A DNA stretch of 64,000 nt from Oscillatoria sp. CS-180 (GTDB taxonomy: Bacteria; Cyanobacteriota; Cyanobacteriia; Phormidesmidales; Phormidesmidaceae): positions 1 to 64,000 of the forward strand of contig NZ_JAQMUB010000011.1 in the NCBI RefSeq assembly GCF_028330965.1. Direction: 5' to 3'. Position numbers and translations under genes: made by a program. A model generated the notes under the pieces. That model was not told the DNA's origin. It was given only the letters and a program-made list of their open reading frames with translations, and searched no databases. Below, in pieces: positions 60,348 to 64,000 of this stretch; within the stretch, counting starts at the first letter, position 1, and the number at the start of each line of letters is the position of its first letter.

Positions 60348-60760
60348 TGCTTAGGCTCAGGTGTGACTTTCCAAGGAACAATTTTTTGACTTGATGTCTA
60401 TCAAGCTGCTTAACAATCCTGAGATTGGAGTTTCCCAAGAATTAATTTTCAGCGTAACTTTTATGCCAAGTACCTTAGTACTCTAAGTAAATTCACTGGG
60501 CCCTCTTTTCTTGAGAAGCGTTCTTTACCGTGTTGGATTCCCTGGAATGCATCCATTTGAAGTTTTTTGCCCAAACAAAAATTTATTGATATCTCTTAAA
60601 GGGAGAATTTCCCACTTTTACTTGAGCAGATAGTATATCACGCAAAGAACATCGAGATCTGTAATATTCTTTTAAGGTTTATCTGAGCGTTTGTGTTAAC
60701 TTGCTTTAAGTAGGGTTTGATACCTTGCGCTTTGCATGTATGTCTTTTCAGGAACTTGTG
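60348..60760. other. Gene-free leader of the cyclase cluster
   Basis: A 413-base interval between divergent ribD and the cyclase gene. It contains a small hairpin AGTAC-CTTA-GTACT (around 60470) and A/T-rich runs that could carry promoters. No gene or known RNA was seen. Confidence 0.45.
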
Positions 60761-62551
60761 ATGACAACGACTACTTCGGCAGTTAAGGCTTTTATCGCAG
60801 CATGTGACAGCCAAGAGCTGACACGTCAGAGCGTGGAGGAAGCCGTAGAAGGGCTAGTGTGTAGTTCGGATTTTAGGGACCTGCTGCTTGCCTTGATTAA
60901 CACGGAAGCCTTCTCTAAAGAATTGGGTCAGGAGTTTGCCACGGCAGGAGCTATTCAGGGTCTTTCTGCCTGTCGCAAGCTACGAAGTTGCCTAAACACG
61001 TCATTGAGCAACTTCTTTGGTTTGCTGTCTGAGTTACTCTCAGCTTTTGATACAGAGGTCGGCATGACTTGGGCTACCTTTGCTGACGAGGTTCGTCAGT
61101 CACCTTTAGGGCATGAGAAGCTGTTGCAGGTTTTGGTGAACAGTGGTGAGGGGGCCTTTTACCAAGATCTCGCAACTCAATTAGTCGAGACCGACCCCCA
61201 TGCAATCTATCCCACCTCTAGCTACCGTCAGAGTAAGGGCTATGTCGTTAGCACGGATGATGATCAGACCGTTGAGGCAGTCATGACCTCTAGTACCTTT
61301 ACCTCCATTCGAGTGGTAGAGAATGTTCTGGATCCGCAACAAGCTCTCTTGCGAGATATGTATATTGCTGTGGGTCGCTGTGTCTGTCTAATTGACCAGA
61401 ACGTTGAGCGCTTTTATGGTGAGCAAATCGAGCACTACTTCAGTCATCACGGCATCACGCTAGATAAACTTGTTTACCGCGCTATGGAGGTTGACAAAGG
61501 CATCCATACGGTAGAGCGGATGCTGGGTGACTTCAAACGGCTTGGGGTTTCTCGTAATGAGCCAGTTTTGATCATCGGCGGCGGTGTTCTGACCGACACG
61601 GGCGGTTTGGCTTGCGCCCTCTATCACCGCAACACGCCTTACGTCATGCTGTCCACGTCCATCGTGGCGGGTATTGACGCCGGGCCGTCTCCTCGTACCT
61701 GTTGCGACGGATTTGGCTATAAGAATCTCTTCGGTGCCTACCATGCGCCAATCCTGTCTATCACTGATCGCGCCTTCTTCAAGACGCTCAAAGAAGGATG
61801 GCTGCGACACGGCATTGCTGAAATCATCAAGATGGCGATCGTTAAGGATAAGGAGCTGTTCAGCAGCCTGGAACAAGCGGGTCCTGAGCTGATCACCACT
61901 CGTTTTGGCGCTCTGGATTGTCAGTCTGAAGATGAAATCTGCGTTCTCTCCCAAAAGATTCTAGGCGCAGCAATGCGGAGCTACGTTGAGGCTGAATACG
62001 ACAACTTATATGAGACGCATCAGTGCCGTCCTCACGCCTATGGACATACCTGGTCGCCTGGCTTCGAAATTGCATCTGGATTGCTCCACGGTCACGCTGT
62101 CGCGATCGGTATGGGCTTTGGAGCCTACCTGAGCTACCGCCATGACTGGATCAGCAAAGAAGATTTCCACCGCATCCTACGTTTGATTAGCTCCTTCGGA
62201 TTGAGCCTCTGGAATGACGTCATGCTGAACCGCGATCTGGTTTGGGCTGCTCAGGAGAAGATTGTGCAGAAGCGCGGTGGTAACCTGACAGCACCGTTAC
62301 CCAAAGGCGAAATCGGCAAGTGCGGCTACCTTAACTCTTTGAGCCATGACGATCTGATTTTGGCGATTTCGGAATATCAAGCTATCTGTACCGAGTACCC
62401 TCGTGCTGGATTAGGCATCGATTCACTCTGTAGCGATGTCGGCTTGGAAGATCCGTCTACAATTGCTCACCATGTCCTTTCAGAGGCAGTGCCTGCTCTC
62501 ACAGAGGAAGCTGAAGAGATCTTATCAAGCGTTACTGAGGTGGCAATTTAA
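60761..62551 (+). CDS. Sedoheptulose-7-phosphate cyclase-family enzyme (EEVS/DHQ synthase-like), divergent
   Basis: A 596-residue protein. The C-terminal part (about 180-560) has the fold of 3-dehydroquinate synthase and 2-epi-5-epi-valiolone synthase: VLIIGGGVLTDTGGLACALYHRNTPYVMLSTS (about 268-299), KNLFGAYHAP, GIAEIIKMAIVKD, YGHTWSPGFEIASGLLHGHAVAIGMGFG (about 419-446) with the metal-binding histidines. The C-tail YLNSLSHDDLILAISEYQAICTEYPRAG matches sedoheptulose-7-phosphate cyclases rather than AroB. The usual Lys-rich loop is replaced by GPSPRTCCDGFGY. An N-terminal extension of about 160 residues, helical, has no known match. ATG at 60761, after CAGGAAC. Followed at 4 bases by the DUF6492-like gene. 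Confidence 0.82.
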   Translation: MTTTTSAVKAFIAACDSQELTRQSVEEAVEGLVCSSDFRDLLLALINTEAFSKELGQEFATAGAIQGLSACRKLRSCLNTSLSNFFGLLSELLSAFDTEVGMTWATFADEVRQSPLGHEKLLQVLVNSGEGAFYQDLATQLVETDPHAIYPTSSYRQSKGYVVSTDDDQTVEAVMTSSTFTSIRVVENVLDPQQALLRDMYIAVGRCVCLIDQNVERFYGEQIEHYFSHHGITLDKLVYRAMEVDKGIHTVERMLGDFKRLGVSRNEPVLIIGGGVLTDTGGLACALYHRNTPYVMLSTSIVAGIDAGPSPRTCCDGFGYKNLFGAYHAPILSITDRAFFKTLKEGWLRHGIAEIIKMAIVKDKELFSSLEQAGPELITTRFGALDCQSEDEICVLSQKILGAAMRSYVEAEYDNLYETHQCRPHAYGHTWSPGFEIASGLLHGHAVAIGMGFGAYLSYRHDWISKEDFHRILRLISSFGLSLWNDVMLNRDLVWAAQEKIVQKRGGNLTAPLPKGEIGKCGYLNSLSHDDLILAISEYQAICTEYPRAGLGIDSLCSDVGLEDPSTIAHHVLSEAVPALTEEAEEILSSVTEVAI

Positions 62552-62555
62552 TCCG

Positions 62556-63578
62556 ATGCCGATTGCAGAAGCATTTGATTTTGTCATTCCCCTCTTTAAA
62601 GTGCGATGGAATACTCGCGCGGTATTAGAGGGGCTGACAACTCACTACCAGCCTCGTGCCATTCATATCGTTACGCCTGAGGCGGAGGCGCGATCGCTCC
62701 GCGAACAGGTCGAAAGCTGGCAAGTCGCTCCTCTCCACGTACATGAAGAGGAGCCTTTCTTCCAAACCATTGGTCTGTCTAAAGAAAGCATTTGCGCTGA
62801 ATTAGACTTGGGTGAATCCCTCTACACTCCCGGGTGGTTCTATCAGCAACTTTTGAAGCTGGGAGCGTTTGAAGGAATCGCCGATCTAAGTGAGTGGTAC
62901 ATGGTGTGGGATAGCGATTTGCTCCCTGTAGCAACTTGGCCCATTTTGCAAGAGGTGGGAGGGAATGTAAGACACTCTTTTGCCTTGCTTCAGCACAATC
63001 AGTACGGCAATGCCAAGATTGTCGAGACTTGGGCCGAGTGGATTCGCTCGGTGCTGAAGGTTGAGCCACTGACGGATGATGTGGGTACTTTTGTGCCCCA
63101 CCATATGTGGTTCAAGCAGTCTCACCTGAAGGCCTTTGCTCAGCAGGTGAAGGACTACTATCAGTCTGATGATCATTGGCTGTTGCTGATGATGCGCTCA
63201 GCCAATGATTTTGGTACCTTCAGCGAGTATTGGGCTTATGTCTCTTGGGTGGCGGCAAACGCACCTGAAGACTTGTCTTTCTATCCGTACGATCGCTATG
63301 GCGAAACCACCGAGCGATTCTTCGACGACGGTACAGGACTATTCTCAGCCGCCCTGAAGCTGGGACAGGCTGTCGCTGAATTAGCCGATGAGCCATTCTC
63401 ACCGAGCTATGAAGTTGTGTCAGCTTTTGTCAACGTCGAATATGGCTCCGATGAGCCACCCTCTTCCCTCGCCTTTGAAAGTAGCCCCCGCCACTTGAAG
63501 AAGGATGAAAAGAACATGCACATTGAAGAGTCGCGATCGCGTTGGAATCCTCGTATGGCCGAAACAGCTAGAACCTAG
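62556..63578 (+). CDS. DUF6492-like/glycosyltransferase-like hypothetical protein
   Basis: A 340-residue soluble protein. It begins MPIAEAFDFVIPLFKVRWNTRAVLEG, followed by AIHIVTPEAEARSLREQV (about 32-49), the WYMVWDSDLLPVATWPI block (about 111-127) and HHMWFKQSHLKAFAQQV (about 180-196). The D-x-D within VWDSDLLP, between beta strands, resembles the nucleotide-sugar site of GT-A folds and of DUF6492 proteins. It follows the cyclase gene by 4 bases, implying one transcript, so it may modify or glycosylate a cyclitol. The family call is from pattern memory only. Confidence 0.6.
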   Translation: MPIAEAFDFVIPLFKVRWNTRAVLEGLTTHYQPRAIHIVTPEAEARSLREQVESWQVAPLHVHEEEPFFQTIGLSKESICAELDLGESLYTPGWFYQQLLKLGAFEGIADLSEWYMVWDSDLLPVATWPILQEVGGNVRHSFALLQHNQYGNAKIVETWAEWIRSVLKVEPLTDDVGTFVPHHMWFKQSHLKAFAQQVKDYYQSDDHWLLLMMRSANDFGTFSEYWAYVSWVAANAPEDLSFYPYDRYGETTERFFDDGTGLFSAALKLGQAVAELADEPFSPSYEVVSAFVNVEYGSDEPPSSLAFESSPRHLKKDEKNMHIEESRSRWNPRMAETART

Positions 63579-63584
63579 AAACCG

Positions 63585-63614
63585 TATGGGAACGCGATAG
63601 GTCGCGTTCCCATA
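63585..63614. terminator. Perfect 13-bp stem after the DUF6492-like gene
   Basis: TATGGGAACGCGA (63585-63597) pairs perfectly with TCGCGTTCCCATA (63602-63614) around a 4-base loop, 6 bases after the stop. No U-tract follows, so it may be an RNA-stabilising 3' hairpin or an intercistronic structure rather than a strong terminator. Confidence 0.6.
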
Positions 63615-63824
63615 AGCGTATTGCGACAACCAGCATCGGCGTGAAGAACATGCTTCGTTCCAGTGCGATCGCCGAGCTTCACTAGTTGTTGGCAAAAATT
63701 GGACTCAAGATTGCCGTTTTCTAGGGACTCCATTAAGCAATCTCTTGAGTAGGGAACCATTGGTCCCTACAATTATAGAAATTCGATTAATAGGCAATAA
63801 TACGCAGTTCGGTCAGGAGGAATC

Positions 63825-64000
63825 ATGCCCAGCCGTCCAATCATTCTAGGGATTGTGGGCGATAGCGCAGCAGGCAAAACGACGCTCACTCGCGGGATCG
63901 CACAAATTCTAGGCGAAGACCAAGTTACCGCCATTTGTACCGATGACTATCACCGATACGATCGCAAACAGCGCAAAGAAATGGGAATTTCTGCGCTGCA
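63825..64000 (+). CDS. Phosphoribulokinase-like kinase, N-terminal fragment (cut by window end)
   Basis: The first 58 codons of a P-loop kinase of the phosphoribulokinase family. AGGAGG-AATC lies just before the ATG. The Walker A reads GDSAAGKTT (about 12-20), then AICTDDYHRYDRKQRKEMG (about 37-54), the conserved DDYH...DR...R substrate block. Calvin-cycle PRK of cyanobacteria has a redox cysteine in the P-loop (GDSGCGKS, from memory) that is replaced here by Ala-Ala, whereas the second cysteine (C38) is kept. So this is a paralogue, probably not under thioredoxin control. It may phosphorylate a sugar or cyclitol made by the two genes upstream. The rest of the gene is outside the window. Confidence 0.8.
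   Translation, partial: MPSRPIILGIVGDSAAGKTTLTRGIAQILGEDQVTAICTDDYHRYDRKQRKEMGISAL

Follow-up and report, generated by a model that had tools for sequence, protein, structure and literature searches.

A probable MysA-type extended cyclase adjoining a DUF6492 gene in Oscillatoria sp. CS-180 and its likely part in a split mycosporine pathway

The canonical DDGS (Ava_3858, PDB 5tpr) is encoded inside mysABC(D) clusters. In Halothece, mysA (PCC7418_1590) together with mysBCD (PCC7418_1078-1076) gave mycosporine-2-glycine in Synechococcus elongatus (PMC12981126), and the expression of the Halothece mysA and mysB-D genes has been described (PMC9374696). In Hyella patelloides and most Pleurocapsales, the mys clusters are without mysA, and mysA-like genes of unknown role lie elsewhere (PMC8472315). 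EboD, a product of the ebo operon, is a further member of the sugar phosphate cyclase superfamily (PMC5133447).

Here we describe a cyclase gene near the end of a 64,000-nucleotide stretch of DNA from Oscillatoria sp. CS-180 (the window). The window cyclase and canonical DDGS have in common the fold, most catalytic positions, and the broader lineage of sedoheptulose-7-phosphate (S7P) cyclases, but they are 35 to 39% identical, and canonical DDGS has no N-terminal helical domain, has another substrate loop, and is mys linked where the window cyclase is not. EboD is in the same superfamily but belongs to another clade and has other gene neighbors. The Oscillatoria genome has its own ebo operon (contig C19, locus L005:6688-13879) with EboB-, EboC-, EboD-, EboE-, and EboF-like genes and a possible EboA, all named by eye and position.

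A sequence-only reading of the window had proposed that the cyclase gene, the adjacent gene for a DUF6492 protein, and a third gene for a phosphoribulokinase (PRK)-like kinase form a new cyclitol pathway. The features are given in Table 1. The list of open reading frames (ORFs) starts the cyclase at a TTG at 60725; homologues conserve the start at 60761. Four bases (62552-62555) separate the cyclase and DUF6492 ORFs, which are both intact, and the two genes would be cotranscribed. Pfam matches were DHQ_synthase (2.5e-17) and DHQS_C (2.1e-17) for the cyclase and PRK (2.1e-41) for the kinase. Homologues were 52 to 82% identical to the window cyclase and 60 to 76% identical to the DUF6492 protein, and these alignments argue that the window ORFs are not chance ORFs. 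The inverted repeat downstream of the DUF6492 gene folds far better as RNA than its shuffles do (z, −5.0) and is present in a single copy within the window; it has no T tract, and the hairpin is a possible transcript end. No Rfam or tRNA matches were found in the window. As the sequence-only reading had stated, the window holds no mycosporine O-methyltransferase or ATP-grasp gene (the only MysC of the genome is on contig C25), and the gene set is unlike any canonical mycosporine or validamycin cluster.

Table 1 Features of the cyclase-DUF6492 locus
Feature	Position	Strand	Remarks
Putative extended S7P cyclase (MysA/DDGS type)	60761..62551	+	596 aa; Pfam, model, tree
N-terminal all-helical domain, residues 1 to ~145	60761..61195	+	Helices in model; specific to extended clade
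Active-site loop, residues 301-322, IVAGIDAGPSPRTCCDGFGYKN	61661..61726	+	Arg312 at DHQS Lys152 position
DUF6492 protein	62556..63578	+	340 aa; GT-A/Stealth-like
Perfect 13-bp inverted repeat, 4-nt loop	63585-63614	.	Begins 6 bases after DUF6492 stop
PRK-type kinase gene	63825-64778 on contig C49	+	317 aa; cut by window end, complete on contig

The best match of the cyclase among solved structures was Anabaena DDGS (PDB 5tpr), with which the predicted model aligned at a Z score of 49.5 over 376 residues; ValA scored lower (44.0). In a tree of 99 sequences, built by a quick method with SH-aLRT support only and with references from EEVS, DHQS, and EboD but none from EVS, the N-terminally extended cyclases formed one clade (support, 100). 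Their sister was an intermediate class, here called MID (100), and canonical DDGS came next (99 for the three classes together); some outgroup branches are very long, so that the clades are better secured than their deep placement. EEVS, 3-dehydroquinate synthase (DHQS), and EboD fell outside the three classes, and the window cyclase did not group with ValA. It also lay outside the canonical 5tpr clade and is without the canonical DDGS loop. The sequence-only reading had set the novelty of the pathway against a place inside a known DDGS clade with mycosporine genes, and the outcome is divided: the window cyclase is outside canonical DDGS, but mycosporine clusters are represented in its own clade, as is the apparent MysA of Halothece, and mysB, mysC, and mysD lie elsewhere in the genome, unaccompanied by a cyclase.

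Canonical DDGS and the MID class begin downstream of the position of the N-terminal helical domain. Sequence searches with this domain gave no clear Pfam or PDB match, and the hits of the fold searches were to the cyclase domain. The loop motif DAGPSPRTCCD was invariant in 40 extended members, including those of mycosporine clusters. MID cyclases share with the window cyclase a sister-clade relationship, DAGPSPRTC without the following CD, and K504, but they are ~45% identical to it, have ORFs of 440 to 490 aa and no helical domain, and are linked to mysB and mysC. They sit in mysABC(D) clusters, and in L138-L148, L174, L175, and L243 the MID cyclase serves as mysA in a contiguous cluster. We found no established name for this cyclase class.

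Seven residues that we take to be Zn ligands and catalytic positions, by alignment to the literature numbering of DHQS, are kept in the window cyclase (D306, K321, N322, E354, K357, H429, and H443). GHTWSP is present as in other S7P cyclases, and P433 stands where DHQS has its second His. Thus, the cyclase has the features of a DDGS/MysA-type S7P cyclase with a DHQS fold, i.e., Zn ligands, catalytic Lys, and the Pro of GHTWSP. From its sequence, it is most likely an S7P cyclase of the MysA/DDGS type and of the extended class. That it is a C7-cyclitol-type cyclase, as the sequence-only reading had held, agrees with the Pfam matches, the DDGS-like model, and the tree. The Pfam annotation DHQ_synthase would also fit a 3-dehydroquinate synthase or an EEVS-type enzyme, but we consider either very unlikely: the genome has a separate AroB on contig C44, the NCBIfam aroB equivalog cutoffs are not reached, EEVS sequences fall outside the clade, and P433 replaces the second His. 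AroB and EEVS were accordingly rejected on the aroB cutoffs, the tree, and the active-site residues.

The genome has three DHQS-family genes only, AroB, EboD, and the window cyclase. On contig C25 (locus L169:3735-8786) there is a HAD-TauD-mysB-mysC-mysD cluster without a cyclase, so that the window cyclase is not contiguous with mysB and mysC. The genome thus combines mysB, mysC, and mysD that have no cyclase beside them with a single S7P cyclase encoded elsewhere. Because the C25 cluster is cyclase-less and the genome offers no alternative, the window cyclase is, judging from gene content, likely the missing MysA of a working split pathway. With bound NAD and Zn, it would convert sedoheptulose 7-phosphate to desmethyl-4-deoxygadusol with loss of phosphate, and this product would feed mysB-mysC-mysD of contig C25.

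Halothece provides an anchor for such an arrangement. On the single chromosome of the genome G413, an extended cyclase gene lies at 1.743 Mb and the mysB-C-D genes span 1.176-1.179 Mb; the only other DHQS-family gene of the genome is AroB. The tag numbers match these coordinates, with 912 genes per Mb for PCC7418_1590 and 915 for 1078-1076, and the descending order of 1078-1076 agrees with the strand of mysB-C-D in G413. From gene order and tag spacing, we infer that G413 is Halothece sp. PCC 7418, so the Halothece MysA PCC7418_1590 is apparently a member of the extended clade. It is 73% identical to the window cyclase, is likewise unlinked from mysB-mysC-mysD, and has functioned together with these genes after transfer to Synechococcus elongatus (PMC12981126). 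The difference is that DUF6492 is not adjacent to the cyclase in G413. Cyclase-less mys clusters were also found in several other genomes whose only such cyclase is the extended one, e.g., Hyella patelloides, in line with the description of Pleurocapsales (PMC8472315).

Outside the cyanobacteria, extended cyclases adjoin genes for a HAD-type hydrolase, an O-methyltransferase (mysB), ATP-grasp (mysC), D-Ala ligase (mysD), and TauD in varying combinations. Such mycosporine-cluster members were found in Bacteroidota, Planctomycetota, Actinomycetota, and Pseudomonadota, including the isolates Nonlabens antarcticus and Aquimarina sp. U1-2; loci from metagenome-assembled genomes may in general be misbinned. 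A HAD-type hydrolase, in several cases with a TauD dioxygenase, recurs in extended-cyclase mys clusters (L117, L121-L124, L126, L129, L130, L255, and L169). The S7P cyclases of such clusters release phosphate themselves. Two cyanobacteria, G024 and G033, have a cyclase-mysB-mysC cluster plus a second methyltransferase.

Across 386 cyanobacterial genomes, MysC was present in 41, and 40 of these had a DDGS, MID, or extended cyclase; the 41st had a divergent cyclase beside mysB-mysC. At L244:5545-6816 (G062), a divergent DDGS-like cyclase, 39% identical to DDGS, adjoins mysB- and mysC-like genes and a second methyltransferase. By class, MysC accompanied DDGS in 25/25 genomes, MID in 11/11, and the extended cyclase in 4/7, and the 3 extended-cyclase genomes without MysC were all DUF6492 paired. 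In 41 further searches at an E value of 1e-40, no second cyclase class was found in the named extended-cyclase genomes.

The link between the cyclase and DUF6492 is conserved, as had been proposed. Among 59 relatives, DUF6492 orthologues were present in 19 of the 21 with an extended cyclase and in none of the other 38, and the two genes were adjacent in 18 of the 19 (they are apart in G033). In the 386-genome sample, DUF6492 occurred in 5 genomes, each with an extended or MID cyclase. Among 40 named genomes, MysC was present in 14/14 without an adjacent DUF6492 gene versus 5/26 with it (Fisher, 5e-7, a value that is too small, as related genomes were counted as independent and the two genome sets partly overlap). 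As exceptions, L128, a broken draft, and G009, where the contig ends in the cyclase, had neither partner. We dropped mutual exclusion of DUF6492 and MysC, since some genomes, including that of Oscillatoria sp. CS-180, have both. FkbM-like methyltransferase genes, recognized by eye from motifs, lie near DUF6492 or the cyclase in distant genera (L033:7699-8574, L041:6981-7901, L098:8016-8747, and L242:2963-3835, the last split over two frames). SbmA/BacA-like ABC transporter genes, possibly for an exporter, were also seen nearby (L040:10737-12758, L098:3646-5454, L099:3638-5446, and L104:1586-3391).

The kinase gene behaves differently. Kinase and pair are adjacent on the same strand in Oscillatoria sp. 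CS-180, which is what the three-gene proposal built on, but a 246-bp gap with the strong hairpin precedes the kinase gene. The kinase scores far above the cutoff of NCBIfam PRK07429, and among 29 relatives searched, 25 had an orthologue irrespective of the cyclase, which several of them lack. In the 18 relatives whose pair was examined, no PRK homologue lay within ~9 kb of it. Kinase membership was therefore rejected: the PRK gene, common in cyanobacteria, is a chance neighbor unrelated to the pair. Of the co-occurrence expected by the sequence-only reading, the cyclase-DUF6492 part holds and the kinase part does not; the three-gene pathway is not supported, and we give it next to no credence.

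The DUF6492 protein matched PF20102 at 5.4e-10 (39.3 bits against a gathering score of 22.9), and 27 of 28 members also matched this family. D119 and D121 (WDSD), H182, and H183 were invariant. With its predicted model (pLDDT, 87), Foldseek matched xyloside xylosyltransferase, CpsY, LARGE1, and GlcNAc-1-phosphotransferase, and VIA-align gave 15.8 for CpsY, ~14-15 for GlcNAc-1-phosphotransferase, and ~11 for GT6 enzymes. A GT-A-like fold is thus common to the model, the Stealth phosphotransferases (CpsY and GlcNAc-1-phosphotransferase), and GT-A enzymes (XXYLT1, LARGE1, and GT6), but identity is ~10%, and despite the Z scores of 14 to 16 to Stealth there was no Stealth Pfam match. The predicted fold makes it fair to suppose that DUF6492 transfers a sugar or sugar phosphate. 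None of the papers in the library that we searched mentioned the family.

Taken together, we think it probable that a MysA-type extended cyclase supplies mysBCD of contig C25, that the DUF6492 transferase acts on the cyclitol, and that the PRK gene is unrelated. DUF6492 would be nucleotide-sugar dependent and attach a sugar or sugar phosphate to the cyclitol or its product. Against this reading, most pair-bearing genomes are without MysC, which makes the pair independent of the mycosporine pathway, and the active-site loop differs from that of canonical DDGS, so that a different product is possible. The extended cyclase and DUF6492 could then make a C7 cyclitol other than desmethyl-4-deoxygadusol, apart from mycosporines even in Oscillatoria sp. 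CS-180. In keeping with this, MysC is absent from 16 of the 19 DUF6492-bearing relatives, a close mysB orthologue occurred only in MysC genomes among the relatives tested, and DAGPSPRTCCD is unlike both the canonical DDGS and the EEVS loops. However, the same motif is invariant in mycosporine-cluster members, paired and unpaired extended cyclases are interleaved in the tree, and this genome has mysBCD with no other cyclase for them; we judge a different cyclitol here distinctly unlikely.

Another alternative is that DUF6492 only decorates mycosporines or 4-deoxygadusol and that, where mysB and mysC are missing, the remainder of the pathway has been lost or unrecognized substitutes are used. 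G033, G038, and G365 have DUF6492 plus mys genes, L114 has both on one contig, and glycosylated mycosporines and a mycosporine glycosyltransferase have been reported (PMC11378024). Yet at least 16 relatives that lack MysC have kept the pair intact, with DUF6492 at 67 to 76% identity, a pattern in favor of selection acting on the pair. We regard decoration alone as rather unlikely.

Returning to the favored reading, members from mycosporine clusters branch off deepest within the extended clade. Therefore, the mycosporine role is probably ancestral, and the pairing with DUF6492, mostly cyanobacterial, came later. Both fates, mycosporine supply and a product of the pair, look possible in Oscillatoria sp. 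CS-180. In genomes with the pair but without mysC, the pair presumably makes something other than a mycosporine; given the GT-A/Stealth-like predicted fold, our best guess is a glycosyl or glycosyl-phosphate conjugate of the C7 cyclitol, and in the many relatives that lack both mysB and mysC, the pair alone would make it. More tentatively, and at somewhat less than even chances, the pair may be a minimal two-enzyme path that starts from S7P and ends in a C7 cyclitol linked to a sugar or sugar phosphate, of a new UV-absorbing or osmoprotective class and independent of mysB and mysC.

The function of the cyclase is thus largely known, though the gene is unlinked, and it is the cyclase-DUF6492 pair that is new. 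The extended cyclase, the sole such enzyme in those of the mysA-less genomes that we checked, offers an answer to the puzzle of the missing mysA in Pleurocapsales (PMC8472315), and genome mining that requires a linked mysA or similarity to canonical DDGS will miss such pathways. An undescribed C7-cyclitol product is suggested by the conserved pair, which mostly occurs in the absence of other mys genes, and the pairing places a DUF6492 protein in a biochemical context.
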